Part shown: in pieces, positions 4,857 to 59,814 of the stretch | Layout of the letters: each line of letters starts with the position of its first letter | How positions within the stretch are numbered: position 1 is the first letter of the stretch | Source: Holothuria scabra | Taxonomy: Eukaryota > Echinodermata > Holothuroidea > Aspidochirotida > Holothuriidae | DNA length: 64,000 nt | NCBI GenBank assembly: GCA_037179385.1 | Contig: CM074179.1 | Coordinates: 70,265,806-70,329,805, forward strand | Reading direction: 5' to 3' | The notes under the pieces: generated by a model | What the model was told of the DNA's origin: nothing | Database searches by the model: none | What the model saw: the letters and a program-made list of their open reading frames with translations, nothing else | Translations under genes and position numbers: made by a program

Positions 4857-4956
4857 CTGCTCCACCCGACTGGAGGGTTACGTGCACACACGCAGAGACT
4901 GTGGCATCGGCTTTGCGGTAAACACACTCCACAGACTTATTTTAATCTAATTTTGT
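4857..4956. repeat. 100-bp monomer lacking the MITE (empty site 2)
   Basis: Uninterrupted monomer with a single intact TTAA at 4942-4945 exactly where the full units carry TTAA-MITE-TTAA. Confidence 0.88.
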
Positions 4957-5045
4957 CTGCATCACCCGGCTAATGGGTTACGTGCACACACGCAGAGACG
5001 GTGGTATAGGATTTGCAGTAAACGCACTCCACATGCTTATTTTAA

Positions 5046-5305: not shown

Positions 5306-5409
5306 TTAATTTAATTTTATCTGCACCACTCGGCTAAAGGGTCACGTGCACACACGCAGAGACGGTGGCATTGGCTTTGCAGTAAACACACTCCACTGGC
5401 TTATTTTAA

Positions 5410-20501: not shown

Positions 20502-21030
20502 TAGTATACTAGAACGGATAAATTCAAAAATCAAACAATCTATAGGTTACAAGCAATGGAAGAACACAAGTGAAGTCATAGACTGGTTTAGTGAAATACA
20601 CGACAAAAACCAACAATCGTTCATTGCTTTTGACGTTTGTGAGTTTTACCACTCAATTACTGCCGACCTCCTCAACGAGGCTTTAGACTTTGCATCAAAC
20701 TACACAGACATACCAGCATTCGAAAGGCATATTATCTTCTATAGAAAGAAAACTATGCTGTTCAACGTTGAAACACCATGGTGCAAGCGTACCGAATCTT
20801 TATTCGATGTCACCATGGGTAGTTTCGACGGTGCTGAAACTTGTGAACTAATAGGATTGTACCTCCTATCACAACTTCAGCATATTAACATGGATGTCGG
20901 CCTATACAGAGACGACGGTTTGGCTGTTTGCAAAGCAGCACCAAGGCAGAAAGAAAAATTAAAGAAAGAAATATGCAAGAAATTCTCAAAAAACAAGCTT
21001 AAAATAGAAATTGAAGCAAACAAAAAATAG
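20502..21030 (+). pseudogene. Penelope-like RT, C-terminal half
   Basis: Reads SILERINSKIKQSIGYKQW at the start, then AFDVCEFYHSITADLLNEAL (RT motif A type), FDVTMGSFDGAETCELIGLY, and LYRDDGLAV, the catalytic DD box in its Penelope form. It ends KIEIEANKK and a stop. In related elements the frame continues directly as NFLD, so a one-base loss at the A run near 21023-21028 splits the ORF. The upstream RT fingers are absent. The element is therefore incapable of encoding a full RT. Confidence 0.9.
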
Positions 21031-22004
21031 TGAACTTCTTAGACCTTACCCCTGATCTTAGCACAAGCACATACAAGCCATACATGAAGCCAAACAACAC
21101 CCCTCTCTATGTGCACAAACAGAGCAACCACCCCTCACTTATCATAAAGAACATCCCAGAAAGCATCAACAGGAGACTATCCAACATTTCTTCCGACGAA
21201 AACACATTCAACGCATCATCGCCCGTATACCAAGAAGCATTACAAAGAAGCGGCTATGGGTACAACCTAAAGTACGAGACCCAACCCCCTAGCACCAGTC
21301 ATTCCAAGGGAGCCCCGAAACGAAGACGAAATAGGAACATATGCTGGTTCAACCCCCCGTTTAGTGACAGTGTCACAACCAACATTGGCAAGAAATTCTT
21401 TAACCTCTTGGACAGCTGCTTCCCACCTGGGCACAAACTACATACTTTACTCAACAGGAACACGGTGAAACTGAGTTACAGCTGCATGGCAATCATAGAC
21501 CAAATCATATCATCGCACAAAAAATACATACTGGCGAAACAGGAAGTACAACCAGCAACGCGAAGCAACTGCAATTGCAGAAAGCAAAGTGAGTGCCCAT
21601 TGGAAGGCAACTGCCCCACGAACGACATTGTGTACCAAGCAACTGTAACACGCCACGACAACAACAACGAAGAAACATACATTGGTCTAACAGAGAACAC
21701 ATTCAAAACAAGATACACCGCCCACAAGTCTAGCTTTAAACACAAAGACAAAAGAAACGCAACTACACTCAGTGAATACATCTGGAAACTAAAGGATACA
21801 AATGTAGAACACTCCGTTAAATGGAAACTAATGAACAAAGCTCGAGCATACTCCACTTCATCTAAAACTTGTAATCTCTGTCTGGAAGAAAAGTTCTTCA
21901 TTATACTCAAACATTCCTTAGCAACTCTTAATAAAAGAAACGAACTGGTTAGCTCTTGTAGACACAGGAACAAACATCTACTGTGTAATTATTCTAATAG
22001 GTAA
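21030..22004 (+). pseudogene. Penelope-like linker and GIY-YIG endonuclease
   Basis: Continues the same element in a shifted frame: NFLDLTPDLSTSTYKPY (end of RT), then a conserved linker (NICWFNPPFSDSVTTNIGKK, KLSYSCM). A Cys motif C-x-C-x5-C-x5-C (CNCRKQSECPLEGNC) precedes the GIY-YIG domain: IVYQATV, TYIGLTENTFKTRYTAHKSS with the catalytic-type Tyr and Arg, and the C-terminal CNLCLEEKFFI and LNKRNELVSSCRH. In Penelope-like elements this endonuclease nicks the target for priming. This half is intact to its stop. Confidence 0.9.
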
Positions 22005-31228: not shown

Positions 31229-32841
31229 TTAATACTTAAAGGCCTTGACACTACTGTCTGAAAAACTGATAAAACCGGTATTCGCCCATCGAGTGATGCT
31301 CACTGGAACGCCTTTGTATCCAGGGGAGGTCCCTTGTACACATACTTTCAGGAGCTCCCCTGCTTCGTCATAGCACGAAATCATCCAGTCTAGCTTATCA
31401 CGTGTATTACTAACAAAGAGAACCATCCATCCAGCGTCACCGGTCCATATGACGGAGACCGGCAACAGTCGACCTGAATCTGACACTGGATGCAAAATAC
31501 TACTTTGCTGCGTCGCAGCATCCGTTCTAAAGATTGATACCACGTTTTGACTTCCACGAACAGCAAACATATTTTCTACATATGAAATACTTGAAAACGA
31601 AGGTGCTTGACATGTGGTGCCTATTCTTCTCAACGGTCTACCCGATATTTGGTATTCCCGAAGTACAGTGCTACCACTGATGGAGATGAGGAATTCATCA
31701 CATTCATAGTGTAAACGGTGAGCTGCAATGCTAGTAATGAATGACCTTTCGCCTACTTCATCAATTGAAATTGAAGCAACTGATTGAACAGCGTCATACA
31801 TGCCACTCTTTCTCCGAGGGTGTAATATAAAGACCATATTACCAACAGCGAACAGAACGTGATTTATTCCGCCGTATTTCATCTCCTTATGTGACATAAC
31901 GACTGGGGATATTTGGTTGTCATTCACAGCGACTAAATATCTCCAGTATTCAATGTGGGTGTCATTTGGATCAATGCAAAGAAATAACACCCCACTTCGT
32001 CTTTGAATTTCGTTATAAACGTGAACTAGTTGATTTTCACGGATCATAACCCCTCCAACGAAGCATCTCACACTGGGTGTTCCAAACGTATTTTCTCTGC
32101 ATAATTCCCGGTACCCATCCCCGTCTTTGCTAGCTCCGCAAGAACTATCTCTAGACACCTCAGCGTACCATTCTTTCGAGTCCCCGACATTTCTTAAACC
32201 ACAATTGCTTTCTTTGGACAATTCTGCATACCATTCGATGTCCCCGTCTTTGCTTAGTCCACATAAATTATCTCTAGACAATTCTTCGTACCATTCAGCA
32301 GTAGTATCGCGGACTTTTGCCTCGACAGCTTCATTCACTTTAACACCTTCTTGATCCTGTTGAAATGTTCCTCCTCGACCATTGATCTCCGAATTCCTTG
32401 ATTTACTCTGATGATCAATTGTGGGTTCCCTTAAATCTTGAGACTCATTTCCTCCCTTAGGAGTTTCGCTTTCATCGGAAACAGGCTGCAATGAATATTT
32501 TGGTTGCTTCCAATGATGAAGACCTTTGATAAGGTTAAGGGCCAGTTTTCCTGGGTTTGTAAACGCCGCTATTTTGCCCGCAGATTCTCTGTGTCCGGTG
32601 TGCATGCTTCGAGTCAAATTTTCAGAGGTGTCACTAAGCTTTTGAAGTAACTCCAAATCCTTCTTAAGCTTTGCTTTGCAGGATTCCATCTCCCGAGGAA
32701 GTTTGTCAAGTTCAATTACTTTGCAGGAGAAATTGTGGGAGCGGTTGTAACATTTTTGGCATAGTTTACTGTTGCATGTGATACAAAATGTTGTTAGTTT
32801 CTCTCCGTGTGTAAAACATTTCTGTGTAACTTCGAGATTAT
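31229..32841 (-). CDS. DED/B-box gene A, exon 2 (B-box, coiled coil, propeller-like)
   Basis: Acceptor TTTTGCCCCGCAG precedes 32841. The first two bases complete the Asp codon begun by exon 1, and the frame is open to TAA at 31229, giving a protein of about 630 residues with exon 1. Visible parts: a B-box type zinc finger C-x2-H-x7-C-x2-C-x4-C-x2-C-x4-H-x3-C, whose last ligand is Cys where His is usual; a short Lys/Glu/Leu coiled coil (ESCKAKLKKDLELLQKL); a Ser/Glu-rich linker; four ~20-residue repeats; and a ~280-residue C-terminal region homologous to gene B with NHL-like blade endings (SGRPLRRIGT, AGELLKVCVQG). There is no RING. An adaptor or sensor role in immune or death signalling is inferred from domain order only. 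Confidence 0.87.
32078..32296 (-). repeat. in-frame repeat in gene A linker (EWYxELS units)
   Basis: Four tandem units of 20-21 codons between coiled coil and propeller-like region: EWYEELSRDNLCGLSKDGD, EWYAELSKESNCGLRNVGD, EWYAEVSRDSSCGASKDGD, and a shorter YRELCRENTFGTPS. Each holds a Tyr in an acidic setting followed by a Cys-Gly. Gene B lacks this block, so it arose or was lost after the duplication. Function unknown; repeated short binding motifs are one possibility. Confidence 0.85.
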
Positions 32842-34008
32842 CTGCGGGGCAAAACAAATAATAACTATCATGCGACCAATGAATCATTCAAGCTTTACAT
32901 ATGGATGTAAAAATACAAAATGTACCATAAACTAATCTAAACTTTGACAGCAGCGTGCACGAATCTTTGTCTTCGCCCTTCATGTATATTCGAAGAACGC
33001 GCATTCAATTGGTAGAAGAATATCGAGGGCGTGCATAAGGCAACCTTACTAAAGGCAATCTATTCTCCAGACTGAGAATTTTTTTCTAGTAGCCCTCAAT
33101 AATTTGGGTTTGCATAACTCTTGGATTGACAGTAAATCAAAAGAAAAATATCAAAGTATTAAGGCTGTGTTGCGAAGAATGAACTGTACTGAGAGTGTTC
33201 TGATTACACATAAGGGCCTCGTATAGTCACGGAATCAAAACTTGGAATACGTCTGGACTAGGATAATGTCTAGAATGTGTGGAAGGGATTAACATCAGGA
33301 CTTTAGGAAAACTGGATTTGTCTGGGTTGTAATAAATGACCTTTTAATCGAATGAATGCAGTTCTCCCAGTAGTACCGGGAAATGGGTTTTGTTAATGCG
33401 CAGGGATTGGCTACCGACACAAACATATTGAGAGGGAGAGAGGCAACGCCGATGCTGAGCTATACTGGACATATTGCTACTAAAGCCAAAAGGACTGTGT
33501 AAATGTAACAACCATAAAGAGAGTAAAAGTGCTTCGGGTCCCAATAATTCATTCGATGTGTACTCGCCGGAGGTGAAATTACTATCGCTAATCATCAATA
33601 TAAAAATATTGACCAATCCACCGGTCTAGGTAAGGTTTTTACAGCGCTATAATTAATACACTTCAGAAAGATTGTTCGATCAATTACATCCATTACATAA
33701 ATTTTCAACCCGGAGATTGGCACGAAAGTCTGTCTTACGTTGTAATTTAGTTAGAAAAGGTTTATGACTCAATTTGTAGTCAATTGGTTTAAGTATGTTC
33801 GGTCACGACGTAATTCCACTTGTGTCTGACTGGTTTCTTTTTCCCCCTATTTTCTCTTTTCAGTGCTGAGCGCCAAACACATGGACAGAAGCTATGTTCC
33901 ATATACTAAGTAATTGGGCAAGGAAGCGAAATACAGATCAACCCCGGTGCAAGTTGGATGCTGTAACCATTTGACCATGAGGAAGCATACTGGGTTTTTC
34001 TTTCTTAC
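32842..34008 (-). other. intron of DED/B-box gene A
   Basis: 1167 bp between donor GACG|GTAAGA and acceptor CCCCGCAG|AT. No repeat or extra exon recognised in it. Confidence 0.8.
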
Positions 34009-34288
34009 CGTCTAGATGTACATGCTTGTAGGTCATAAGAGGCTTTAACGCCTGCTGAAGCTGTAGCTCATCCAACCATTCAATCAGAATACTGACGTTC
34101 TTCTCATGAAGCACTCCGTGTTCCTCTAATTGGTCGAAAAGATCCATAGCATCTTTCAACTCACGGCGTTTACTCGGTGGGATTTGCACACACAAAAATG
34201 CTAATTGTTGCACATTCTCGTATGTCATATGACGTGCAACCCTTAAGAGAGCAACTCGGAAATGATTTGATAGTGGGGATGACGTCAT
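34009..34288 (-). CDS. DED/B-box gene A, exon 1 (death effector domain)
   Basis: Encodes a single death effector domain of about 85 residues: FRVALLRVARHMTYENVQQL then AFLCVQIPPSKRREL (the DED helix 2-3 pattern L-x-F-L-C), LFDQLEEHGVLHEKNVSILI and EWLDELQLQQAL. DEDs bind other DEDs in caspase-8/FADD-type assemblies. I start it at the Met of MTSSPLS because gene B starts at the same place relative to the domain; an upstream in-frame Met at 34348 follows a possible acceptor and is less likely. The exon ends at 34009 with donor GTAAGA after the first base of a codon, as in gene B. The acidic RxDLL motif of classical DEDs is not clearly present. Confidence 0.85.
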
Positions 34289-34289
34289 C

Positions 34290-37200
34290 GTTGAGTCTTT
34301 TAAATTGTACACTTCATTAGAACACCACCGAAGGACTAAATGACGCAAAAAGTGTACCGTACCTGTTTAATAGAAAGGAGATTGCTAAAAATGTATACTT
34401 AAAGCAAAGCCAAGTAGCAGAAATATCTTAATATAGTTCTATTTCGTCCTTATGGTAGAAGGCCTACACCGACATTTTCAATGTAATTTGAAGGTAATTT
34501 TTCTTGCAAAGTTGCGAAATATTGATAATTATATTTGCGTCTAAATTAACGTTCACAGTGGATAAAATATCATTTTTGCAGTCCCCCCCCCCCTTGTAGT
34601 TTGTACTCGTGCCATAAATCACGATAAAGAGGTAGAACAGAGTCTTAAGAAATCGTTAGGTCGTATGCGTTTACTTTGGTTGGCGGCGTTGAGCTGGGAT
34701 CACAGAAGTATACGGCAGATGAAGAAAACAAACATGCAACAGTTGGCAGATGGATGTGAGGATAGCTTAATGAAAAACAGGAAAAGAGATGTTTAGACTA
34801 CACGAGACTCGCGTGACAACGTCTAATTAAAACACTCGGCTGCATTCTTTCAAAACCCGATTAAGTGAAAACTTAAACCCATTTAAATTACTTCGTAACG
34901 GATCGCACAAGAAATAAATTACTTAAAAGAGAATACAATAGTAACCACTGAATAATAGTCAACATCTCTGTCATTTGTTGAAGTATATTGCGCGTCTCCA
35001 AAGAAATACCACAGTATCCACTATTGCGTTTAAAAGGCAAGAGCACTCTCCCCAAACTCACTTTGAAGGAACAGCTAAATATCACCATTTCCTTCTTATT
35101 TCTCTTCAAAGTCTCTTTCATAAATTTTACAACTTCAAGAACGCAAGAACTAAAAGGAATGGGTAACACTTACAGTTTCAGTAAGCCCACAAAAACTTGC
35201 CCAAAGATGAATGCTGCTAAGTCGATGAAAGAGGACCGTGGCATCGGCATGTAAGATGTGCTTAAGAAATAACATCTGCTGGTCAAGGTTACTCCGAAAA
35301 TGGAGAAGGGACTTGATTTGTAAATCGAACATTACATTAACTTGCAAAAGTAGTGTGCCTTATTGCACTGGCTATTTCCTTATTATGCTTCAATGGCGTA
35401 TTACACCGTTCAGATCGAAAATGAGCAACCCAGGGTGTCGTTCCATACACAGTAACATTAAATGCATACATCCTATTCCATTCAACCCCATAGACAAATA
35501 CAAAATATGACCTAAACTACTGAAGCATAACAAATGAGAACCGTGTTTGCAAACGTATTATGATTATATGTAATGATTTATGTAGAATAGATGACTAATA
35601 TTTACACCGAGGAGCTGTTACATGGACAGCCCACTTGCTTTAGATGTGCGGTTGCCAAGTATTTTCGGAAACCAATCCTTGATACTGTTCGAGGAGATTC
35701 CCAGTGGTTGAAATAGGCCTATACCTTAACAACGTCGCACAACCCAATGGTGGAGGCAGTCTGTAAGCCGTAAGCAAGAGCACATTGATCCTCAATGAAA
35801 TAACGCCGTCATTGAAAACTTTTTCACTGAACTTGAGAGACAACCTGTTACATGTTGGAACCTTAGTCGGCTTTGAGGCTTCATGTTGTTTCATTTTAGG
35901 GCAGAAATTATATGATTTACCAACACTTGGCATAAGATTTTATGTGAACTGAGGGATTGATCGAGTCAGTCCAAGATACTAAATTTCCTCTCCGAAGTCC
36001 GACATTGCAATAATTACTCGACACCTGTAATTCTCAAAGCTGATTACACAATTGTGTACAATTTATTAGGGATATGGACGCCATAGCGATATTCATATAC
36101 TGGTTTCTATAGGATGCAGAAAACCTTTATGATTTCATGAAATGCACTAATTTGAAGAAATGATTTGATTGAGATAGACATTATAAACTGCCCATGCAGT
36201 TTCCGATCTCTTCTATCACAGGATATGTCTAAATATATGTGTAAACCACACGAACAGAATGAACCAGCACCTCACAATGGTACCAAGCCAAACAGCATGA
36301 AAATTGCTAAACAAGCATAGCCCTGTTTTTTACTAGCAGTTCGATTTGCACTTTGAAATTTTCTTAAAGGGGAAAATTACGCAAAATATAGATTACACAT
36401 GAAAAAAGGGACATGAATGCACACAGTTTGTTTAAACCTTAACTCAGTTTTGACATGTATTTCTCTGGATACCAACGAATGTAGTTACCAGACTTGTGGT
36501 CCAAATTGAGCGTGAAGGAAGCAGAGGTTATATCACTTCCTTACATTGTTTAAAAATGCTCTGTTTTTTCTAAATTCCCTGTATACTTTATTTCGCCACC
36601 GTCCTGTAAAAAATGAACAACAAATAGGCAACAGATGACCAAAGAATTTAAAAGTGCTAAACACCGTGTATATATGGGCTAGTGCTATTTTGAAAATAAC
36701 ACGTCATTTAAACTAGTACCCGTACCCATACATTTTAAAGGGATCCGAGCTTTTCATTTTTGTTCTTCCATAAAAGGATTCAAAGTTAACTGCTACATAG
36801 TAAATACATTGAAACATTTCATAGAGTTAACCAGCTATAAGAATACAGTGTTGTGTACAATAATATACATCACATACATGTATACCTCAGGTAGAATACG
36901 ATAGACTCTAAGTTTTGTCCTTGGAGGTTTCCACGATCCTTTAGACTTTCAGTGATGGATGCTTTATTTAACAGAGAGTGAACAGAAGGCAGTCGTGTTT
37001 ATCTCCGTGACCTTGACCCGTACAAATAACTTATCTCAGAAGGATGCAGTAGAATGCATGACCACAATTTTTAACTTTATATACATGTCGCTACTCAATT
37101 TAAGAGAATCAAAATAGGGAACAAGAAAAAAGCAAATTAGGTTGACGGTATTCTTCTTGCATTCCATCATCCAACTCTGTAGTTTACACAGATACACTTG

Positions 37201-39840
37201 CGTACACCTTATAAATAATTAATTTCCGCAAGAAGTCATTTACAATCATAAGAGAACATTAACGAAATTTGTTTAAAAAAAATAAAAAGAAAAACGGGTC
37301 TTTTTTAGACGATGCGAGAAAGAGGCACGTTACACTTGTGCACATAAATCTAATAAGACAGTCATGTACCTTGCTTTTGTTGAGCAGCTGTACGTGGACA
37401 AATGGTAACTGCCATTTTCTTTTCAAAATTTGTCCTCTAGTGATATTGGAGGAATTTTGAAATACCGATCAACGTTACTACAAATCTTGTGATAAAGCAC
37501 ATACAGCAGCGACGCAGAATTTAACAGGTGGATAGGTATTGATTTTATATCAAGGTGATAATTTTTGCATCAATCGTGTTGCAACTGAACCGTATTCTCA
37601 TTTATACTACAAACCATCATTTGAAAGATAACTCGCAAAACCACATATGTGTTGATCAAGGCCTAAGTTGTATTACTGGAATTTAAATAATTCCAGGACT
37701 GATAACCCTAGAAGGATATCACTACTTATACTACATGTTACTTATGATCAAATGAAAACCACGTTTAGTGCGCCATTAATTTACGGTGACACAAGGAAAA
37801 ACTGATTCTAAAGAGTTACGACAGCAAAGAAAATCACTGTAGCAAATACACGAGCCTTACTGTTCTAAAGATATTTGCCATCTTAGTTTTTCTCAAATAC
37901 TTCATGCTGTGGCAGCACAACTAGTTCAGAAGTGTTGGTAGAGCAAATGGATGGCATGAGAAACTGTTTCGGACAACCAATTCCTAGTGAAGCGCGAGTC
38001 TTTGCGAAGGGAGTCCATGGACACGATTTAAGGCCCCTGGTGGGGTCCATGGTCCCAATCACCCGCCCCCCACACAAACACACATTTTACGGAAGAATTT
38101 CATGTTGAAGTTGGTACTAGGATCATTTTGTTATCATTGATCAATAAATAACATAACTGTGCAACGAAGACGGAGAAGAAGAACAAGAAGAAGGTTAACT
38201 AAGAATTGTTGGTTCTAGGAGTTAACCTGCGACGAAACACAGAAATTTAAGATATTTATTTCATTCTTTTCATTTTTCAAAGGTTCTAACTTCCAGTGTG
38301 AAAGGAACAAAATGTTACAAGGGTTAGCGTTTTTTTTTTTCTGAATATTTACGAATTACACCATCTGAACTCGATACAAGATACTTTATAGTGTGTAAAA
38401 ATAATATTTTCCAAGAAGACAATTTGACATTTTCAACGCTGCCACTAGCTATAGAACTCACTACAGAAGGTTAATATGGCACTACTTGCATTGCAGGTTG
38501 TGTAAACAAATGGCACAGTAGGTTAAACTTTGCGATTGTCGAGAATGGAAGGGGTTTTATTCTCGTTTCGTCATATGGTCATTAAACATACCTCTTCGGA
38601 GTCCTTTTTGGTTCATTGCATTTACAAACCATGAATTACGAATTTGAAATTAGGTGGAAAAATCCTCCGTAGAAAGTAATAAAGCCTGATTGGTATTATA
38701 AACAGTCAGATACCCCTGTTACTATTGGCGTTAATTAAATTTTATTTCAATTTATTCTGAGCCACAGACAGTACGAAATCTTTATCAATGGAACCAACGT
38801 CTCTGCATCTCCAACTTTCTGAATGATTATTAAAATCCCTTTTATCATTAACGATAATGGAAAAGTCGATTTGCATTCTCGGGTAATGGAATGTATGAAC
38901 AATGCAGATTGTCTAAGCTCCCGGTTAACTATTTTCTCTCATTACAATAGATGGGTGTTTAGAGAACCTTGTACATATTTTATGCTGTGCGGCTGAAGTT
39001 ATCATCAGATCTCGAGAGTTATATGCCTTAAATTGATCGCGTGGTTTAATAAAACTACAGGGAAAATATTTTGCTGGTAGCAAAATAAAATGCATTGGCA
39101 GCTACTGTTGATAGTGTATATTGCACAAAGTTGTATCGTAGCATATGAATAGCTATACAGTGTTCGTCCCCACCAAGCACAGCACATGCTCACAGTAAGA
39201 TTATGCGTAGTATCCGGTACTGAAGTGAATAGTTGCAATGCTTATTACTAGTACAATGAATCGCTGAACTTCAAAAGGTTGACTTCGTTTTGTTCAATGC
39301 TTGAAACTTTCAACATGCGTCGCTAAAGAAGTAAATACTTCAAGCCATCCTCTAATAAAAATAGTACAACTTCCGTACATTGTGTAATGTTGCATGTGTG
39401 GATGAGAGTAAGCATTCGCTTGGTTTGCTATTCACACATGATATCAATGAATACCGCGGTGATGAATTTAAGCACATTTTTCAGTTCAAAGTAAAAAAAA
39501 AAGTATAAAAAACACTTAATTGCGAACTATCTGCGCGTAAGAAATAACAGCTGACGCACACTGTTTGACAAGGGACTTCTCAATTGGTTGTTGTCTCCGT
39601 ATTGTATAGATGTAATTCTTTGTTAAGGGTAGAAAATACGGGACGTGACAGGAAATTTCTGGTTAAACGGTGCGTATAGGCCCCAAAATAAGGTGCACGC
39701 TGGTATAAACCTTACATCTTTCATTGACCTTTTACTTCAATATTGTGCTTGAGAGAAGACGTTTGGTTTCAAATGTTATCTACTTAAATCGGTTCGCTCA
39801 ACAGTATTGCTGTGTATTTCTGAATTGCTTGAAACTAAGG
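34290..39840. other. 5.5 kb without recognised genes
   Basis: Upstream region of gene A. AT-rich, with C tracts near 34583 and 38066. Short open frames at 34888-35933 occur on both strands without family features. No transposon ends with duplications were noticed. Confidence 0.5.
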
Positions 39841-39849
39841 CACATCTGA

Positions 39850-40870
39850 TTTTTTTTTAACTTTTTTGGTACATACAAAACACAAAACATAAACAAATAT
39901 AAACAGTACACAAAAAAGAAAGTTACAGACAAAAACCGAAATAAAAGACAAAGTACGAGTGAAAGGAGTTACAAACAGTGTACCAGGGACAACCCAACAA
40001 GCCTTAAAAAGGGGGCGATGCGCACTGTTTAACAACTAAATTTCCTAACTGGCTAACGATAACTCTAATCTCTTACCTAATCTCAAACCCGAACAAAGAA
40101 TACAATCGACATAATACAATGGAAACAGCCAATCAAGAAACACCTTGTTTAACCGTACCCATCTACCCTAGAAAAGCTCATTTCCATTGGGGTCCCTAAG
40201 GACGAAACAAGAAACAATTGCACAAGGAAGTGGGAGGAAGTTTGAGTATTGCACTGGATGAAAGACACCGGCTGACAGTAATAAAGGCGATTCTCCCTAG
40301 AGACATTGTTGTGCTTAAAGTGATTTGTTGGAAAGATTATTCTTTATGCATAATTTAAAACGGGAAAGATTTTTAATTTGCTTTAATGTGTTAGGAAGTG
40401 ATTTCCGAAGTTTAAAACCTGTAAAGAAAAAGGTGCGATCAGAGGATTCTTTTATTCTGGGGACAAGGAAGTTTAATGGACTATCTCTGGTACTGTGTTG
40501 ATGGATATCTTTTAATCTAGTAAAACTGAAATTAAGATACTGGGGGCAGGTGTCATTAAAAATCTTTAAAACCAGATCAAGTTCAAGTTGTCGCACCGTG
40601 TCGCAAACAGATAAAACACCGACTTTGTTCAATTCACTTTGACCGATATGGGTACGCGAACCTACATCTAAAACGAACCTAACAATTTTATTTTGCATGG
40701 TTTGTAACTTACTGTTATACTCCTAACAGAGAGAGGAGAGAACTAGGGAGAGCAAGAGTAATCAAAGTAACATTGAATAAGAGCGGCGCAAAGGATATTT
40801 CTTGTGCGACTCTGCATAGAGTTAGACTGCCTATATAAAAATTTAAAACGTGAACCAGTTTTTTCTTCAT
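39850..40870 (-). pseudogene. LINE 3' part (RT C-terminal region and 3' UTR)
   Basis: The minus strand reads the typical C-terminal end of a non-LTR retrotransposon: FLYRQSNSMQSRTRNILCAA, LIQCYFDYSCSP, a frame change, then KLQTMQNKIVRFVLDVGSRT and LELDLVLKIFNDTCPQYLNF, and a GFKLRKSLPNTLKQIKNLSR ending at 40315. About 460 bp of 3' UTR-like sequence follow, ending near an A-rich tail at about 39850. The catalytic RT core is absent. The lineage is uncertain (CR1, L2 or RTE-like). Confidence 0.75.
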
Positions 40871-41299
40871 TCGAAATACATAATTTTTGACGACTTCAAA
40901 ATTTTGTGACGTCATAGCTTAGGAGGATTTTCCCCAAATAATGCGTCATGTCATGTCACACAAACGAAGTTTACGACAAAACTATAGATCCAAATAAAAC
41001 CAACTCTTTTTCTCCTGCTACATATGACATGCAGCTACCAGAAACGGGTTTAACCATTTCGATATATTTGTGGCTAGAAGGAAGCATTAATCCTTTAAAT
41101 TTTGTAAAAAGCACACCTTTGCTTATAGACATCAATTCCCATAAATTAATGATTTACGACAAAATTAAAGGGTGTGCCCAATAAAAAAGTATGCACTGGA
41201 TGTGTTATAGTACGAACATTACAAATCCAATTTAGCCAGACCTTCACAACCCCGAGAACTACATTAAGCAAAAACCGAACAATACAGCATGCACCCACA

Positions 41300-41560
41300 C
41301 ATCGCATTTGTGAGGTTTATGATCGAAACTTTTCGATATTTTCGAATTTTAGATGCTGCCACAGCTTCTTGGGGTTATTTTTGTTCTCAGCTATTTCGTC
41401 GAGGGCTTTAGCATGATTGATGTCCCTTTAAATCCTGTTCCTAACTTTAAAGTAACTAGAGTAATGGTCGGGGTCCTGATGTTTTTCTTTGAATTTGTGA
41501 AAAAGCTGATCTAGAGAACATATCTCTTTCTCATACAAAGTTTCAGTCTGTCATCTTGGA
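41300..41560 (-). pseudogene. LINE linker fragment, same strand as the copy at 40 kb
   Basis: Minus-strand translation gives SLDQLFHKFKEKHQDPDHYS, a stop, then AEITENKNNPKKLW-like wording (DEIAENKNNPKKLWQHLK), the segment between endonuclease and RT in many LINEs. With the fragment at 39850-40870 it suggests one LINE copy that lost its RT core. Confidence 0.6.
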
Positions 41561-42607
41561 CCCCCAAAGCATCTGACCCACCTTTTTTTTAAAGGAGAAG
41601 GTGACGCTAACGCATTTGCTCCCACGCTTTTTGTGACGCAAAACTTGAAATGGAGGTAGTTATAAGCCAGTACGTTTTGCACCAATTCTTCCTAAAACTT
41701 CAAAAAATTTCACACGCTGAGCTCCCATCCATCTGAAGTTTTATCTAGCTGTGACGCCTGCAATTCAAACAATTGGGTTAACTCAACTTTTATAGTTTCT
41801 CAACTTACGTTTATGTGATTCTAGAAAGCACGGAAATGAAACGTTAAGATGTAACCTCATTTTCCTATATCTTCGAAGATCCAGTCTTCAAATTCCCATG
41901 GTGGCAAATATATGAAGACTATTTTGTAACTGAAAAAACCTTGTTAAATTTTGCATGGCAGCCTTGAAAGGTAATATAAAGAGTGTGCTATCCGACGCAG
42001 ACTATAAAGACGCACCATCAACTTTCTCGGGTTGCCCTAAGGTGGGGCAGATTCATTAAAAACAGTATCTTTTTGTTTTCGATCTTTCTCAATGAAAACA
42101 AAAGACGAAATCTTTTGCTCTCAAAACCTGGTTTTGTTGGTGCGTTTATAGTTTGAGTTCTGCACGATGTCGGCAACCCATTGCATCTTTAGAGGCTTGA
42201 GAGTAGTCTGGTTGTCCGCCAGTCAAGTTGCTTGGTCCACAAGTCGACAAATCCAAGCAGCATCCCTAGCTGAGCCTACATGCTCTTCCTTTGGACAATG
42301 GAGTATACCCAAATTTTAATAGTACCTAAAATATTGTTAAATTTTGCACTATATTGCATTTTGACCCAATCCTCCTAGACTCCTCAATAGGACAGCAGAA
42401 AGGTTGCAAGACAGATCCCCTCCCCCACTTTCAACACTAAATCGACGTCCCTGTTTCTGCGTACTTTAAATGTTGTAAGTTGACCTCTTCTTCCGTACTA
42501 TGTGAGGATTTACAATTAAGGATTTCATTTAAAAAATACGAGACAACTTTCTAGTAACAGACTATACTGGATAATCCTAGAGATTATACCACAGGAAGAA
42601 ACTTTCT
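41561..42607. other. 3' flank of DED/B-box gene B
   Basis: No gene recognised; it would contain gene B's 3' UTR. Confidence 0.5.
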
Positions 42608-44064
42608 CTAATATTCAAACGCTTCGACTGTATTATTTGCAAAGCTGACAAACCCTGTACTTTGCCAGCGGGTAAGACTAATAGCAACATCGACTTCATT
42701 ACAAGTTCCTTCGGCGCAGATCTTATCTAACGTCCCCGCCTTATCATACAGATCAACTTCCCATCTCTCGTTGTTACCACTGACGACTAATACCATCCAT
42801 TTAGCACCAGTCCAGATGACACGAACAGGTCGAAGATTGGGGGACGATGAAGATGGTGCAAGAAATCCATTTTGTTTCATATCAGCCTCAGTGGTGACGA
42901 GGATGACGTCATCGCTCCCACGACCAATAATTGCTGCGAGGTTATTTACATATGCAATGCAAAATATTGAAGATACCAGACTCTGAGTTCCAATTTCTCT
43001 CTTCAATTCACCGGAAAGTTTGAGAAATTTTAAGAGTCCGTTGTCGCTAATTGAAATTACGAACTCGTCCAATTCTCCAGTTTGCGATTCGTATGAACTT
43101 ATACTGGTGATCCAAGCGCTTTCACTCAAGCCGTGTATCTTTTGCAATGAGTTGGATTCTACTTCGTCGTAAATGGAATTATTCCATCGAGGGCTAACGA
43201 CATGGACTGTTCTTCCAACAGCAAATAGCAATTGTCTTCCGTTTTCGAACCATGCACCTATGTTAGACATCACGACAGGAGATTGGTGGTCAGTTGTCGT
43301 CAAGACGTGCTTCCAATACACCCTGCTGGAATCTTTAGGATCGAAGCACAGAAGAAAAATGGTCCCATTTATTTGTCTTTCATCAAAAAGATGTACTATT
43401 TGGTTGTCTTGAAGTATGACGGAACCAATTAATGACGATAATGCAAGAATACCAAAACTACCATCATTGACTATCCTCCGGTAGCACATGGTGATTGGTC
43501 TTTTTGTAACTTCGACCTCTTGCATTCGTATTCGATCTTCGATCTGTGCACACTTTCCTCTTATTTTGCATATTTGTTGCAGTTCGGATAAAACGTCACT
43601 GTAGCGTTCATTGATATGCCTCTCTACATGACCAACAGTTGTGAACACTTGTTCAATATCTTCTCTTTCCGTGAATAATTTTTCAAAGTCTAACATTTCT
43701 TTTTCATCGAGTTTCTCTAACAAAGCCACTTTGTTTTTCTCGGCCCTTTGTTGGATGGAAAGGTTATCTCTAAGAACCTGTTGTCTAACGCTCTGCTGAC
43801 GTTTTGAAAAGAATAACTTCTTTGCTTCCCAACGTTCCTTGACGGCTTCACTACGCCTGCTCAATGATTCGATTTCCTTTTGAAGTTTATTGCGACGTCT
43901 GGACACTTCATTATTCACCTCATCGAGTTTAATTATGTCGTGCGTGCTTTTATCATGCAAGTTGAAAGCACATTCTGAACAAACTTTAGAGTCACAAGAA
44001 GCACAGAAATATTTTAGTTCTAGATTTTCATGTTCGATGCACCTCTCCATATGTTGTATGGCAT
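42608..44064 (-). CDS. DED/B-box gene B, exon 2 (B-box, coiled coil, propeller-like)
   Basis: Acceptor TTGTTTTACAG precedes 44064. The first two bases complete a codon started in exon 1, and the frame is open to the stop at 42608, giving about 577 residues in all. B-box: C-x2-H-x8-C-x2-C-x4-C-x2-C-x4-H-x4-H, a canonical ligand set. A long charged coiled coil follows (NEVSRRRNKLQKEIESLSRR through KVALLEKLDEKEMLDFEKLF), longer than in gene A. The C-terminal ~280 residues align with gene A throughout: DNQIVHLFDE, SPVVMS, LLFAVG, SWITSIS-like, SGELKREIGT, VRVIWTG, LYDKAGTLDKIC, TRWQSTGFVSFANNTVEAFE. It has no RING and no repeat block. Confidence 0.87.
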
Positions 44065-44504
44065 CTGTAAAACAAATAAATTTTTTTTTTTTTAAAAACA
44101 TGTTGGGTTCAATAAAACAATATAACTGAAATCGCTGAAACAGCATTAGTGTTATATATTCAAGAGGGAGTAGGGACTTGCGGTATGCCCACATGACCAT
44201 AGACTAAAGGAAGGAGTCTGGTCCCTTTACCGGTAATGTGCAAGACATCCACATTAAGATGGTGAATCATTTGTAATTGTAGGAATAGGATGAAATCTAC
44301 TGGAAAGTTTACAGCTAATTCAAATTTCTTACAGCTTCCATCCAATAATACGACCAAACTCTAGCGCCTATTCATCAAATGAGTTGAAGAATGTTTTGTA
44401 AAGAGCGTGGAAATTTATGACAATTTTGGCGTTTTAAAAAAGGCGTTGACGGTAATGTGCAGTGCATAAACATTAATTTTAAGAGATCCTGAAAATAAAC
44501 TTAC
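44065..44504 (-). other. intron of DED/B-box gene B
   Basis: 440 bp, donor AAA|GTAAGT, acceptor TTTTACAG|AT. Same position and phase as gene A's intron but much shorter. Confidence 0.8.
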
Positions 44505-44781
44505 TTTGGAGATACATTTGGGAATAATCTTTAAGGTACTTTGAAGCCTCTAAAAGCCGAAGCTCATCCAACCAGCCAGTGAGGACATTAACATTTCGTT
44601 CATTAAGTAAGCCGTGCCCTTGGAGTTCTACAAAGAGCTGAATGGCATTTCGAAGTAACTCTCTTCTGGCAGGTTTAATATCCTCGCAGAGAAACGCTAA
44701 GTCTTGGACGTTCTTCTCAGTTAAGCATTCACCGACTTTCAGGAGAGTAATTCTAAATGGACTTATTGACAGACGAGCCAT
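44505..44781 (-). CDS. DED/B-box gene B, exon 1 (death effector domain)
   Basis: Starts at the Met of MARLSISPFRITLLKVGECL. The DED follows: NVQDLAFLCEDIKPARREL, LFVELQGHGLLNERNVNVLT and GWLDELRLLEASKYLKDY. It is clearly the same domain as gene A's exon 1 (shared N-V-Q-x-L-A-F-L-C, G-x-L-x-E-x-N-V, W-L-D-E-L). The exon ends in phase 1 at 44505 with donor GTAAGT. A 5' non-coding exon is possible but not seen. Confidence 0.86.
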
Positions 44782-48040: not shown

Positions 48041-48469
48041 ATTAAGGTTGTTTGAAAGTAACAGTACTTTTGTAATCCATTTCATGGTTGGTTAGCTTAT
48101 GCTGTCCAAGTTACAGATAAACATAATCTCCCCACGTTACGGCTCACATTGTTTGGGAAAATGTATGTTATACTGTTAAAACACCTAACGATCTAAATAT
48201 GAACCCTGCCTGAGAACTGTGTCAAGCCATGCGATTTGCTAAAAGAAAGGAAACACTTTATAGAGATTTTACAAACCATTTACTTTGTTGAAAATGGTAG
48301 ATGTTACGAACACGTGTAGATATAGGGAAGCAACTTTCACTGTGGACCTTGGGGAAATTTTAGTTGATGATGTGGTGCAAACATGTCTGTTCCTATTTTC
48401 TATTCAAATCACAATGCACCCAAAGGTTACATTTTCCAAACTTTGTAGAGATGCTCCCTTTAAAGACAG

Positions 48470-48487
48470 CAATAATAATAATAATAA

Positions 48488-48518
<31 letters not shown>

Positions 48519-48545
48519 AACAACAACAACAACAACAACGACAAC

Positions 48546-48641
<96 letters not shown>
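48470..48641. repeat. (AAT)n/(AAC)n/(GAC)n microsatellite
   Basis: Trinucleotide tract changing from AAT to AAC and GAC and back to AAT. Its end coincides with the 5' limit of the plus-strand LINE. Poly-Asn, poly-Ile and poly-Leu frames here are artefacts. Confidence 0.95.
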
Positions 48642-49355
48642 CTCACAATGGGCATATGGTTGTATAGTCAAAGAAATTTTTAGCCCTCCAACAGCTTTAC
48701 AGAAATGGGATTATAACTTCGATCAGGGTAAATGGTCAACTATTTTTTCTAATGTCTGGTTTTCGGTGAGGGACGTTAAATTACAGTACTTTCAATTTCG
48801 TTTTTTACATAGAATTTTGGGAATCAATAGTCGTTTAAATCTAATGAATCGAACTGTAAGTCCGTTGTGCTCTTTTTGTAAAATTCATGAGGAGACTTTC
48901 GATCATTTATTTTGGAGTTGTCATTTTGTGTCCGCCTTTTTGCTGGATGCTGAGAGTCTGTTTCTTGGCAGATGTTTTGTTTTTTCGAAGGAAGATGTCT
49001 TCTTTGGTTTCAACCAGTTGCTAAAGCATCCCTACAACTTCCTAATTTATAATTTGAAGTATTTCATTTTTCATTGTAAGCAAAATAATAAACTGCCAAC
49101 ATTATACGAATTTGAGCATAAATTTAAATTTGCTTTGGAGGTCGAAAAGCATATTTCAATGAGAAATTTCAGTAAAAGATACTTCACTTATTATGAATTA
49201 AAGGATACATTTTGTAATATCTAGACGAAATCCATGTATTAAGTATGTGCTGAAAGATTTTCTTTTTATGTTTAAGATAATGGAAGTTTTTGTTTTGTAT
49301 AATAGTTTTTCTTTACATGCAAAATGAGCAAAAGTTGAAATAAATTATGGATGAA
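48642..49355 (+). mobile_element. LINE 3' end, L1/Tx1-like, 5' truncated
   Basis: Open frame to 49224 with the C-terminal region after the RT: YFQFRFLHRILGINSRLNLM, then the zinc-knuckle-like C-x2-C-x7-H-x4-C (LCSFCKIHEETFDHLFWSC), and a conserved tail (HPYNFLIYNLKYFIFHCKQN). About 130 bp of 3' UTR end in A8 followed by AAT/AAC repeats. It is related to, but clearly diverged from, the LINE on the other strand at 49.9-52 kb. Confidence 0.82.
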
Positions 49356-49455: not shown

Positions 49456-52048
49456 TTTTCCTTCTCCTTTATTTCATCTCATTTATCAAATGGTATATTT
49501 AAACATATTGCAAATGAATTATATTAATTGGTACACAAATTGCAAAAGAGTACAATGGAGAATAAATACCAAGAGGCAATGTAAACACATAATCGAGGAA
49601 AATTCTTTAAAGAAAGGATAAAGTTAGCTTTCATACTTGAGAAGAGCAATGGTGTTCGGATTTAGAACGACTTTGAGCTTCAAAAAAAAAAGATAATAAA
49701 AATAATAACATAGCACTAATCATTTAAATGTCTTGCATTCCTCAAAGAAATGAACACTCTGCAAAATAGAGTATATATATTCATAGATTCAAAATGGAAG
49801 ATATTGATTAGCGTCATTACAAAAATACGGGAAAAGTACCATCGTAGAACCCAGAGAAACAAAGGGAGGAAAACGGTGTATCCATGAATCAATTAAAAAG
49901 GTTTGGACATAAAGCAAAAGCTCTTTCAAGATCACTAAAATTTACTTTCGATTTTACTTGAAATCTTTTTCGTTGCTCAACTTTAACAACAAATTTAAAT
50001 TTATAGAAGAAATCATTAATCAACGGTTTTTCGTTTCTTAGTTTACAATCAAAAATAAATTTCTTCATGTGCATAGTTAAAAAATTATAAGGATGCGAAG
50101 GACGGACATAACAAAAATAATAATCTCGCTTTGAAAAGAAAAATTGCTCACTCAAAAACATATTTTCTACATCCAAAATGAAACTAGACGTAAATCTACA
50201 GTCCCAAAATAAATGGTCTATACTTTCCACTTCAGTCTCACAAAAAGTACAAAGGGGGTTTTCTGATTTACCCATTAAAGAAAGGAGTCTATTAGTAGGC
50301 AGGATTCTATGGAGGAATCTAAATTGAAAATATCGGATGGTTGGGTCCGAAGTGGAGCTCCAAGGAGTACGGAAGAAACGTGACCAATCGTCAGTATTAA
50401 TGTTGTTAAAAGTAGCTTGCCATTTAACACACGCAGTAGGTATTTCTATAACTTTCTTAAGTATAATACTATAAATAAATTGCGAACTGCTCTTTGTACC
50501 CAACATCTTGTCAAATAATTCTTCGTTAGCATTCCTTTCGTTACGAATATGAATAGACTCACGCCAGTTGAGGGGAATACTATGCACTAGACCCCAATAC
50601 AGAGTAAAAGGTAATGTATCAACGTTTTATTTACTGATAAAAGCTTCAAAAACTTAACGGTCTACCAGTGTCGTGAAAGAAATCACTTACATACTGAACA
50701 TTCTTTCCCAAAAGCCTAGGATAAAATACAATTTTACCATTCACACGGATATTTGAATTATTCCAGATATGCTGGATACCGAAATCCCCTCGGGGGTTTG
50801 TAAAGGAGGCACGACACCAAGCCTCTATGACTTGCCTAATAAAATTGTTTTTAATACTTTTAAAGTCACGTGGACTACAGTTACAATTAAAAAAGTATTT
50901 CTTACCATACACACTTAAACTGGAGTCAAAGAAAAATTTCCATGGTTCATTCAACTCATCTACATAACGGCGAACCCAAGTACATTTAAGACTATCAATA
51001 AAAGTACTAATATGAGTAACCTTTAAGCCACCATCACTCATTGGATTAATAATTGAGGTACGCTTAATCTTATCCGGATTCCCTGCCCAAATGAAATTAT
51101 AAATAGTGTTTTCTACTTCTTTAATGAACGAACTCGGGGGATTTGGAAGGACTAGGAAAAGATACACTAATTGTGAGAGTCCAAAGCTTTTAACAATAAT
51201 ATTTCGGCCAATCGGAGTTAAGTCACGACTAGCCCATATGCGGAGAGTGTTTTTTAGACGAGATAATTTAGGCTGGTAGTTAAGACGAAATAAATCATCT
51301 CCCTTATTCAAAAACAATACCTAACATGTTGACAGGGCCCAATGTTACCTCGAAATTAAAGTCATTTAAGTATAGTGGCCTTCTCTTAATAAAAGAGCCT
51401 AGTGGAAAAAGTTTAGACTTAGCTCTATTAATTTTAAGACCAGAAGCTTCTCTAAGGCATTCAAGAATATCAATAATTACGCGAAGGGAACTTTTCATGT
51501 GGTCTAAAATAAAAGTAGTATCGTCTGCATATTGGAGAATCCTACTTTCATCGGCTCCAGTAACAATCCCGTGAATTTCATTACACTGATTTACCTTGAG
51601 AGCAAGGGTTTCAACACAGAGAATAAATAAATAGGGGCTTAGGGGCAACCCTAACGCACACCTCTTTAATGGGGAAAAACCTGTTGAAAAACTGTTGTTC
51701 AGCACACAAGCGTGCATTCTTATAAAAAGTGCTAATCCAAGTTTTAATACTGTTCCCAAAATTAAAAAAAGAAAGCGTCGCCTCAATAAAATTCCATTCC
51801 AATGTATCAAATGCCTTTTCAAAATCTACCAAAAAGAGAAAACCAGGTATATTATTAGTTGAAGTGTAGTCAATCAAATCAAGAATAAATCTAATATTTT
51901 CACCAATAAATTTTCCTTTCAAAAAACCAGTTTGTTGAGGACCTAATAACGATTTAATAACACGTTGAAATCTATTAGGAACTGCCTTTGCACCTATCTT
52001 GTAATCCACATTCAAAAGCGAAATTGGACGATAGTTTTGAAGGAGCGT
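49456..52048 (-). mobile_element. LINE, L1/Tx1-like, 5' truncated and frame-broken
   Basis: Minus-strand pieces in order: QNYRPISLLNVDYKIGAK, LVDFEKAFDTLEWNFIEATL (RT palm, first Asp), a frame change near 51640-51660, PLSPYLFILCVETLALKV, ILQYADDTTFIL (catalytic YADD), KINRAKSKLF, a frame change near 51310, then the thumb/connection region (IWASRDLTPIGRNIIVKSFG to 50646). After a further break comes the C-terminal zinc-knuckle region LCTFCETEVESIDHLFWDC, ending at 49889. The 3' UTR runs to about 49456. The element starts at NYRPIS, where it abuts the (AAG)n tract; the endonuclease half is missing. Confidence 0.88.
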
Positions 52049-53492
52049 AGAAGAAGAAGAAGAAGAAGAAGAAGAAGAAGAAGAAGAAGAAGAAGAAGAA
52101 GAAGAAGAAGAAGAAGGAGAAGGAGTAGGAGAAGGAGGAGAAGGAGAAGGAGAAGAAGAAGAAGAAGAAGAAGAAGAAGAAGAAGAAGAAGAAGAAGAAG
52201 AAGAAGAAGAAGAAGAAGAAGAAGAAGAAGAAGAAGAAGAAGAAGAAGAAGAAGAAGAAGAAGAAGAAGAAGAAGAAGAAGAAGAAGAAGAAGAAGAAGA
52301 AGAAGAAGAAGAAGAAGAAGAAGAAGAAGAAGAAGAAGAAGAAGAAGAAGAAGAAGAAGAAGAAGAAGAAGAAGAAGAAGAAGAAGAAGAAGAAGAAGAA
52401 GAAGAAGAAGAAGAAGAAGAAGAAGAAGAAGAAGAAGAAGAAGAAGAAGAAGAAGAAGAAGAAGAAGAAGAAGAAGAAGAAGAAGAAGAAGAAGAAGAAG
52501 AAGAAGAAGAAGAAGAAGAAGAAGAAGAAGAAGAAGAAGAAGAAGAAGAAGAAGAAGAAGAAGAAGAAGAAGAAGAAGAAGAAGAAGAAGAAGAAGAAGA
52601 AGAAGAAGAAGAAGAAGAAGAAGAAGAAGAAGAAGAAGAAGAAGAAGAAGAAGAAGAAGAAGAAGAAGAAGAAGAAGAAGAAGAAGAAGAAGAAGAAGAA
52701 GAAGAAGAAGAAGAAGAAGAAGAAGAAGAAGAAGAAGAAGAAGAAGAAGAAGAAGAAGAAGAAGAAGAAGAAGAAGAAGAAGAAGAAGAAGAAGAAGAAG
52801 AAGAAGAAGAAGAAGAAGAAGAAGAAGAAGAAGAAGAAGAAGAAGAAGAAGAAGAAGAAGAAGAAGAAGAAGAAGAAGAAGAAGAAGAAGAAGAAGAAGA
52901 AGAAGAAGAAGAAGAAGAAGAAGAAGAAGAAGAAGAAGAAGAAGAAGAAGAAGAAGAAGAAGAAGAAGAAGAAGAAGAAGAAGAAGAAGAAGAAGAAGAA
53001 GAAGAAGAAGAAGAAGAAGAAGAAGAAGAAGAAGAAGAAGAAGAAGAAGAAGAAGAAGAAGAAGAAGAAGAAGAAGAAGAAGAAGAAGAAGAAGAAGAAG
53101 AAGAAGAAGAAGAAGAAGAAGAAGAAGAAGAAGAAGAAGAAGAAGAAGAAGAAGAAGAAGAAGAAGAAGAAGAAGAAGAAGAAGAAGAAGAAGAAGAAGA
53201 AGAAGAAGAAGAAGAAGAAGAAGAAGAAGAAGAAGAAGAAGAAGAAGAAGAAGAAGAAGAAGAAGAAGAAGAAGAAGAAGAAGAAGAAGAAGAAGAAGAA
53301 GAAGAAGAAGAAGAAGAAGAAGAAGAAGAAGAAGAAGAAGAAGAAGAAGAAGAAGAAGAAGAAGAAGAAGAAGAAGAAGAAGAAGAAGAAGAAGAAGAAG
53401 AAGAAGAAGAAGAAGAAGAAGAAGAAGAAGAAGAAGAAGAAGAAGAAGAAGAAGAAGAAGAAGAAGAAGAAGAAGAAGAAGAAGAAGAAGAA
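52049..53492. repeat. (AAG)n microsatellite, 1.44 kb
   Basis: About 480 AAG units. It is pure except for a GGA-rich interrupted patch at about 52114-52156, close to the LINE junction. Homopolymeric Ser, Leu and Arg frames through it are artefacts. Real length is uncertain because such tracts assemble poorly. Confidence 0.97.
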
Positions 53493-58362: not shown

Positions 58363-59401
58363 CTACAAATTAAAAGAAAGAATAAATCCAACTGTAGAAG
58401 GGATGCAGGAGTTACTGAAAAAATGCTGCAGTAAAATATCTGTTAGGCCTACACTGAAAAGTCCTAGTCCCCTCCCCCCAAAAAGAAAAAAAACCAATAG
58501 TGGCAAGAAAGACTTTTTTCAATTTAATGATAATAACAATGGCGATCTTTAATAAATCCAGCTGATATAACCAGAATGCAAAAATACATTGAGGTTTCGA
58601 TGATACACAAATGTTCCATTTCAAAGAGTGCCATCATGCACCACTATCTTCTCATTCAAATGTTATGATAGCATGTTCAAAATATAATGTTGTCATTCCA
58701 GATGACCTTTTGACCTACATAAAAGCCATACATAGCAAGTCATACAAACAACACACAGACAAATGAACAAACAGCTATCTTGAAAGATCATATTTAAAAC
58801 GGTTTCCTGGCTTTGACCCCTGGAGACCGCAGATGATCTTTCATATCTACCAAAAACAATGGGGACCATCCTCTGACCATAATGCATCCACATATCCCCT
58901 CTTCAAGCTTCCTACCTTGAGATATCATGTTAACGAGGTTTTCAGACTGACTCCGGGTGACCACAGATGACCTTTGTCCTCGGAAAAAACAATAGGGACC
59001 ATCTCCTGATTATAACGCATCCACATACGAAATATGAAATCTATCCAAGCTCCCTACCTTGAGATATTGTGTTAACGAAATTTTCAGACTTTGACCCCCC
59101 ATGACCCAAGATGACCTTTGACTTCTGCCAAAAACAATAGGGACCATCTCCTGACCATAACGCATCCACACACCAAACATGAAATATATCCAAGCTTCCA
59201 AACTTGAGATATTGTGTTAGTGAGATTTTCATACTTTGACCCCCCAGGACCCCAGATGACCTTTACCCTCCACCAAAAATATTAGGGACCATCTTCTGAC
59301 TTTAACCCATCCACATACTAAATATGAAATCTATACAAGTTTCCTACCATGAGGTATTGTGTTAACGAGATTTTCAGACTTTGACCCCCAGTGACCCCAG
59401 A

Positions 59402-59414
59402 TGACCTTTGACCT
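59402..59414 (-). promoter_or_regulatory. DR1 nuclear-receptor-type site, array unit 5
   Basis: Reverse strand reads AGGTCAAAGGTCA, a perfect direct repeat of AGGTCA with 1-bp spacing, with a further GGGTCA half-site 4 bp beyond. Binding is not shown. Confidence 0.5.
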
Positions 59415-59546
59415 CTGCCAAAAACAATAGGGACCATCTTCTGACTATAATGCATCTACATATCAAATATGAAATCTATCCAAGTTTCCTACCTTGAGAT
59501 ATCGTGTTAACAAGATTTTCAGACTTTGACCCCCGGTGACCCCAGA

Positions 59547-59559
59547 TGACCTTTGACCT
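59547..59559 (-). promoter_or_regulatory. DR1 nuclear-receptor-type site, array unit 6
   Basis: Perfect AGGTCAAAGGTCA on the reverse strand, exactly 145 bp from the previous one, with the same GGGTCA neighbour. Confidence 0.5.
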
Positions 59560-59691
59560 CCGCTAAAAACAATAGGGACCATTTGCTGACCATAACACTT
59601 GTACATTTCAAATATGAAATCTATCCAAGTTTCTTACCTTGAGATATTGCATTAACAAGGTTTTCAAACTTTGACCCCTGGTGACCCCAAA

Positions 59692-59704
59692 TGACCTTTG
59701 ACCT
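59692..59704 (-). promoter_or_regulatory. DR1 nuclear-receptor-type site, array unit 7
   Basis: Perfect AGGTCAAAGGTCA on the reverse strand, again at 145 bp spacing. Confidence 0.5.
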
Positions 59705-59814
59705 CCACCAAAAACAATATGGTTCTTCCTCTCAATATGGCTCATCTATGTACCAAGTTTGGAAACTGTCATATTTCCTAACTTGAGATATTGTGTTAAT
59801 GAGCAAAGTGTCAC

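Follow-up and report, generated by a model that had tools for sequence, protein, structure and literature searches.

The DNA analysed here, called the window throughout, is a 64,000 bp stretch of contig 1 (70.27-70.33 Mb) in the 1.19 Gb genome of the sea cucumber Holothuria scabra. It carries two neighbouring genes on the minus strand, A (31229-34288) and B (42608-44781), whose predicted products place a death effector domain (DED) ahead of a B-box, a central helical region and an NHL-like propeller. The exchange of a RING for a death-fold domain is known from pyrin; here it is seen in a sea cucumber family whose chassis is TRIM-NHL-like. A first-pass annotation of the window described the two genes as a pair. 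They are indeed paralogues, but the word understates their setting: A and B are members of a cluster that holds six DED genes or more between 69.98 and 70.43 Mb. The reading that we favour, at roughly even chances, is that these sea cucumber proteins form a RING-less, TRIM-NHL-like family with a sensor-like character in which the DED acts as a nucleator; a ligand, a coupling to caspase-8/FADD and an immune role would belong to it by inference.

Both genes share the same exon arrangement (Table 1). The first-pass annotation had placed a single intron at the same position and phase in A and B, between the DED and the B-box. This is confirmed: the intron has GT-AG borders and is in phase 1 in both genes. 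The predicted spliced proteins are 630 (A) and 577 (B) residues long with intact frames, and share 39% identity in two regions, the C-terminus (E 4e-65) and DED plus B-box (E 2e-33). By sequence their N-terminal domain is a DED, as had been proposed, with PF01335 matches above the cut-off in A and B. The B-box, also proposed for both, exceeds the PF00643 cut-off in B; in A it falls below, but the seven B-box ligand columns are invariant over a 19-row alignment that includes this gene. The alignment (A1) combines A and B with 17 of the 18 database relatives described below (P0001-P0017; P0018 is omitted), and DED and B-box are both matched at E <= 1 in all 19 proteins. Among PDB entries its profile matches caspase-8 (E 7e-9) and, with B-box and helices, TRIM28 (Table 1).

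The earlier statement that the genes are without a RING is borne out by the four exon frames of A and B, where none is matched at E <= 1; across the 19 family proteins the only RING-like match at this threshold is an IBR (E 0.49) in one sequence. PYD is likewise unmatched at E <= 1 in the A and B exons and in the 19 proteins, and neither B30.2/SPRY nor TRADD-N appears among the families listed for these 19. In gene B the DED match extends to residue 86 and that of the B-box starts at residue 98, leaving too little space for another domain.

The C-terminus of gene B is predicted as a six-bladed propeller with a predicted local distance difference test score (pLDDT) of 89. A structure search with this model places TRIM-NHL domains, including RNA-bound Brat, at all of ranks 1-14 in the PDB, in line with the NHL/propeller-like C-terminus of the first-pass annotation. 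Identity to solved NHL domains is 8-12%. Up to E 1, sequence comparison with the PDB yields nothing beyond a G-beta chain at E 0.6 and three rows for the Brat NHL domain at E 0.09. The profile searches advised by that annotation recover part of the architecture: the DED of both genes and the B-box of B are above cut-off, but Pfam NHL repeats are unmatched at E <= 1 in 10 C-termini tested alone. The best Pfam hint is WD40 (E 0.009, in three of 19 proteins), and it too is missing from the 10 C-termini taken alone. We conclude that the C-terminus is, as modelled, an NHL-like six-bladed propeller, confidently predicted for gene B and extended to gene A through their 39% identity.

A protein search and a profile search, each scoring 8000 candidates, returned the identical 18 relatives. 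They are 40-51% identical in the protein search, where 17 span at least 94% of gene B and one spans 66%. One originates from Holothuria leucospilota, 14 from Apostichopus japonicus (13 entries of 562-653 residues and one of 391) and three from contigs of 2236, 2523 and 3672 bases. A 46 Mb contig is listed for 11 of the 14 A. japonicus entries. The A. japonicus entries derive from more than one assembly; because no pair among the 13 is more than 83.5% identical in the C-terminus, these are taken as distinct genes. Where names are given, database entries of the family are called hypothetical or uncharacterised. Precomputed Pfam domains include both DED and B-box in 14 of the 18 relatives and one of the two in the other four. 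The three short contigs, whose source tag 'lgn' we take to denote Logan assemblies, contain a complete frame of 571-580 residues and look like transcripts. The genomic copy nearest to the protein of the 2236-base contig, at 70.00 Mb, has a 2.3 kb intron. Since relatives from two other sea cucumbers keep the same order and transcript-sized contigs carry it whole, the earlier view that the DED exon and the B-box-to-propeller exon form a single gene is supported, with predicted junctions.

A genome-wide search with exon 2 of gene B yielded 28 matches, ranging from strong to marginal. Exon 2 is linked to a DED exon at 69.98, 70.00, 70.21, 70.30 (A), 70.31 (B) and 70.43 Mb of contig 1. The search for further paralogues and orthologues suggested by the first-pass annotation was thus productive, with at least six DED copies here and 18 relatives in the databases. 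The DED at 70.43 Mb is unlisted by the Pfam scan at E <= 0.001 and matches the family profile with E 6e-14. A phase-1 acceptor precedes the B-box in all six copies and a clear phase-1 donor is present in five, the sixth donor being unsure. No DED was found within 3.7 kb upstream of a further exon 2 copy at 70.40 Mb, within 2.4 kb upstream of that at 47.85 Mb or within 2.9 kb upstream of that on contig 22. An exon 2 relative at 78.56 Mb has neither DED nor Death beside it in the genome-wide domain lists; its propeller matches with E 9e-50, while its B-box region is unmatched in Pfam at E <= 0.01 and looks degenerate (contig 1:78555353, L034). Of 33 DED places, 21 outside the window were read, and in three of these family exon 2 follows within the sequence read.

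The chassis also exists with a RING. Two genes on contig 21 (27.02 and 12.46 Mb) encode RING, B-box, coil and propeller, with RING to C-terminus in one open frame, and share the family C-terminus: the family C-terminal profile matches them with E 1e-7 and 3e-5, and none of seven reversed decoys. These RING-bearing relatives in the same genome support the view that the death-fold exon occupies the position of the RING in related genes, comparable to PYD in pyrin, and agree with the pyrin-like layout put forward by the first-pass annotation. A Death domain may fill the same position. At 50.585 Mb of contig 1 a Death exon (61.8 bits) lies 3.2 kb upstream of exon 2 on the same strand, with a phase-1 acceptor and a donor phase read by eye, and at 50.788 Mb another (47.5 bits) lies ahead of a broken or split C-terminus. 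Position and phase thus suggest that a Death exon is joined to the family propeller at one or two loci. In the second (contig 1:50785341-50788606, L037) the propeller is split over two overlapping frames, which may reflect a broken copy or a missed intron.

A tree of 27 C-termini groups ten A. japonicus genes in one clade (99/99) and, in another, four Holothuria-type proteins with two genes of the H. scabra genome (100/99). The Death-linked gene lies outside the DED genes in an unsettled position. The DED-less 70.40 Mb copy and P0019 sit among the DED genes in the free tree; a tree in which the DED genes are constrained together is not rejected (approximately unbiased test, p-AU 0.16). The simplest reading is that a DED was captured once and the gene was then duplicated, to a large extent independently in A. 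japonicus. More broadly, and with a probability that we place somewhat short of even, the TRIM-NHL-like exon could be a modular receptor chassis: the phase-1 intron before the B-box would admit a DED (70 Mb) or a Death domain (50.58 and perhaps 50.79 Mb) in place of RING, and the NHL loops would diversify from copy to copy; the result would be a sensor system of pyrin type with an origin separate from that of vertebrates.

Three loci on contig 1 (47778462/47779456, 47917638/47918690 and 50267718/50268775) carry a Death exon about 1 kb ahead of a DED exon, the reverse of the FADD order. The DEDs of two such loci (L021, L027) score 44-45 bits with the family DED profile versus at most 35 for the other non-family DEDs read; they have phase-1 donors, and family exon 2 is absent from the roughly 8.5 kb downstream. 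Genome-wide, the Death domain (PF00531) has 111 matches at E <= 0.001, which may include pseudogenes; contig 11 and the 72.03-72.10 Mb region of contig 1 hold groups of them.

Sequence variability gives a further indication of function. Among the 13 A. japonicus paralogues the DED is the best conserved part, with a mean identity of 87%, followed by the C-terminus (76%), the B-box (70%) and the coil (59%); by whole domains it is therefore the coil that varies most, not the propeller. Inside the propeller it is the a-b loops, which join strands one and two of a blade (strands being taken from the confident model), that stand out in 10 A. japonicus sequences, with an entropy of 1.41 bits against 0.52 for b-c, 0.69 for c-d and 0.46 for d-a loops and 0.49 for strands. 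The a-b value is reached by none of 274 circular shifts, ranks that are descriptive and not formal probabilities. This set omits P0006, P0008, P0016 and P0018, the first three of which are present in an earlier 13-row A. japonicus set that gave 0/278 shifts for the same loops. The test was framed after the variable A. japonicus positions had been seen and then applied to four Holothuria-type sequences, whose a-b loops reach 1.01 bits (0/274 shifts; 2/274 with loops one residue wider). Such variability focused on one propeller loop set is what a diversifying binding surface would show, and fits a sensor. Relaxed constraint at exposed turns is an alternative explanation.

In a sensor of this kind the NHL propeller would bind a ligand, RNA or protein, through the variable loop set. 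By analogy with TRIM biology, B-box and coiled coil would form a dimer able to cluster on a multivalent ligand; clustering would gather the DEDs and nucleate a DED assembly, which in turn would recruit an adaptor or a caspase that bears a DED. The pathogen or damage sensor of the first-pass annotation, and its caspase-8/FADD-like pathway, are taken as hypotheses. Nearly all family members keep the alpha-2 Phe-Leu pair (F30 and L31 in B), a DED contact. The family DED may well assemble, judging from its residues, with partners that need not be FADD or caspase-8. By position, candidate partners lie on three contigs. On contig 21 (25.67-25.69 Mb) and on contig 23 (25.75-25.78 Mb) a DED precedes caspase domains by 14-24 kb. 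Contig 19 carries, at 37.03 and 26.75 Mb, a DED upstream of Death; these two DEDs score 35.5 and 32.1 bits, under the Pfam cut-off.

Several observations weigh against the sensor-like reading. The RxDL motif, part of the DED charge triad and typical of signalling DEDs, is absent from all 19 family DEDs, an invariant Leu (L76 in B) occupying the position of its arginine in caspase-8; it is kept in six of 18 other DEDs of the genome (counted by eye), including three read on contig 12 at 42.9-43.2 Mb. As the family DED is without RxDL, the usual DED partners may not bind and binding to FADD or caspase-8 should not be assumed. In the model of the full-length H. leucospilota protein, the DED region forms six helices (7-95) at a low pLDDT of 38-60. 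The coiled coil assigned to both genes by the first-pass annotation probably holds for B, but gene A appears to be without most of it: a Pro/Gly-free stretch of just 33 residues remains, and its linker contains 23 Gly+Pro in 195 residues against three in 144 in B. A simple heptad score, matched by 6/200 shuffles for A and 150/200 for B, is non-discriminating. Finally, the c-d loops, on the same face as a-b, are not unusual (74/274 and 59/274 shifts), and in five deeply diverged DED genes of H. scabra both the a-b loops (2/274) and the d-a loops of the other face (4/274) are variable, so that no single face emerges. Because c-d loops are ordinary and d-a loops vary in the diverged set, the signal is that of one loop set in close paralogues and not of a whole face in every set.

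A second DED cluster, with four Pfam DED matches, lies at 42.88-43.32 Mb on contig 12 (L009, L012, L028). In two of three loci read there a frame of about 580 residues with TPRs follows the DED, and one also has a weak STAND-like P-loop (23.2 bits, cut-off 27.2). From these domain matches it is probably an NLR-like DED family.

Two other functions can be considered for proteins of this layout, both of which we regard as unlikely. They could be regulatory decoys in the manner of c-FLIP or DEDD2: brakes that use their DED to cap or redirect DED assemblies and are brought to their target by NHL and B-box. Loss of RxDL beside a nearly invariant alpha-2 pair would agree with this, as one surface may be kept and the other lost, and no convincing effector domain is matched at E <= 1 among the 19 family proteins. 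However, a decoy is not readily reconciled with at least six copies in this genome and 14 A. japonicus entries, or with variability centred on propeller loops. A role as TRIM-NHL-type RNA-binding regulators (Brat, Mei-P26), to which the DED would add oligomerisation only, with no part in death or defence, is no less doubtful. The closest solved folds are NHL domains, RNA-bound Brat among them, but a fold match at such low identity is uninformative on RNA contacts, and TRIM-NHL regulators are conserved and few-copy, unlike several lineage-specific copies with loop variability.

That the whole architecture is an artefact, with DED and B-box exons in separate genes or with pseudogene copies, is very improbable. 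The splice junctions of A and B are indeed predicted. However, the order recurs in two other species, three short contigs hold the full frame, the phase-1 signals are repeated across the cluster and the frames of A and B are intact. The sensor-like family of RING-less, DED-bearing proteins remains our preferred reading.

Among known systems, pyrin is the closest in design. According to PMC4455283, it is special among TRIM proteins in that a death-superfamily domain replaces the RING; like pyrin/TRIM20, the sea cucumber proteins are RING-less TRIMs with such a domain in the RING place, then B-box, a predicted coiled coil and a recognition domain. They differ by a DED instead of PYD and an NHL propeller instead of B30.2, and the DED stands almost directly before the B-box where pyrin, in the same source, has a linker of 60 or 280 residues. 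The likeness would be convergent, not orthologous. TRIM-NHL proteins (Brat, Mei-P26, TRIM2/3/71) share B-box, coiled coil and six-bladed NHL propeller, whereas the family has a DED for RING, no Pfam NHL match and only remote identity to solved NHL domains. The contig 21 genes share B-box, coil and a homologous C-terminus, but unlike the family begin with a RING joined to the rest without interruption.

In PMC8195603, DED-TRADD-N expansions of marine invertebrates have an N-terminal DED, with C-terminal WD40 propellers in Branchiostoma and a B-box in Crassostrea; TRIM ligase domain fusions are reported in the DEDD2 clade, together with lineage-specific expansions, echinoderms included, and invader recognition is proposed. 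The family resembles these proteins in its N-terminal DED and lineage-specific expansion. Unlike them it is without TRADD-N, and places the DED directly before B-box, coil and NHL-type propeller, in one order in the members seen. The main text of PMC8195603 names sea cucumbers, but 'Apostichopus', 'holothur' and 'NHL' are unmatched in it, source-data tables lying outside this search. No description of the DED-B-box-coil-NHL order was found among the open-access papers searched; most subscription papers lie outside that search, and absence is unproven.

A second instance in a different phylum, with another death-fold and another recognition domain, would show that this swap can repeatedly turn a TRIM ligase into a death-fold sensor. 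The family provides testable receptor candidates in an animal group that includes a farmed species, and its NHL propellers, a domain type of which some members bind RNA, show variability in a single loop set.

Table 1. Features of genes A and B (positions in the window)
Gene	Feature	Position	Strand	Evidence
A	Exon 1 (coding), DED; Pfam match 34025-34261	34009..34288	-	PF01335 52.5 bits, cut-off 35.9; donor GTAAGA at 34008, phase 1
A	Intron, 1167 bp, GT-AG, phase 1	32842..34008	-	
A	Exon 2: B-box, short helical stub, repeat-rich linker, propeller, stop	31229..32841	-	
A	B-box	32732..32824	-	PF00643 21.3 bits, below cut-off 24.1; family profile (gene A among its own rows) E 8e-16; ligand columns invariant
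A	Linker, about 3.5 copies of a repeat of about 22 residues	32080..32296 (approximate bounds)	-	Repeat read by eye
A	C-terminal NHL-like propeller (predicted)	31232..32113	-	39% identity to gene B propeller, whose fold is modelled
B	Exon 1 (coding), DED; Pfam match 44524-44757	44505..44781	-	PF01335 46.1 bits, cut-off 35.9; donor GTAAGT at 44504, phase 1
B	Intron, 440 bp, GT-AG, phase 1	44065..44504	-	
B	Exon 2: B-box, coiled coil, propeller, stop	42608..44064	-	
B	B-box	43925..44050	-	PF00643 27.3 bits, above cut-off 24.1
B	Coiled coil / central helices	43499..43924	-	Long helices at matching place in H. leucospilota model; B-box and helices profile versus TRIM28 E 1.7e-6
B	C-terminal NHL-like six-bladed propeller (predicted)	42611..43486	-	Predicted structure

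Elsewhere in the window, reverse-transcriptase fragments (zf-RVT, RVT_1), probably from elements of the long interspersed nuclear element (LINE) type, are found at 48364-49221 (plus strand) and 49892-51825 (minus strand). Tandem repeats occupy 2626-5409 and 58904-59719, with units of 355/462 bp and 145 bp respectively. Positions 52049-53492 consist of about 481 AGA triplets with 99% matches, and the open frames of 458-646 residues located there are products of this repeat. A 329-residue frame at 21015-22001 on the plus strand has a weak GIY-YIG match (18.1 bits, cut-off 22.6).

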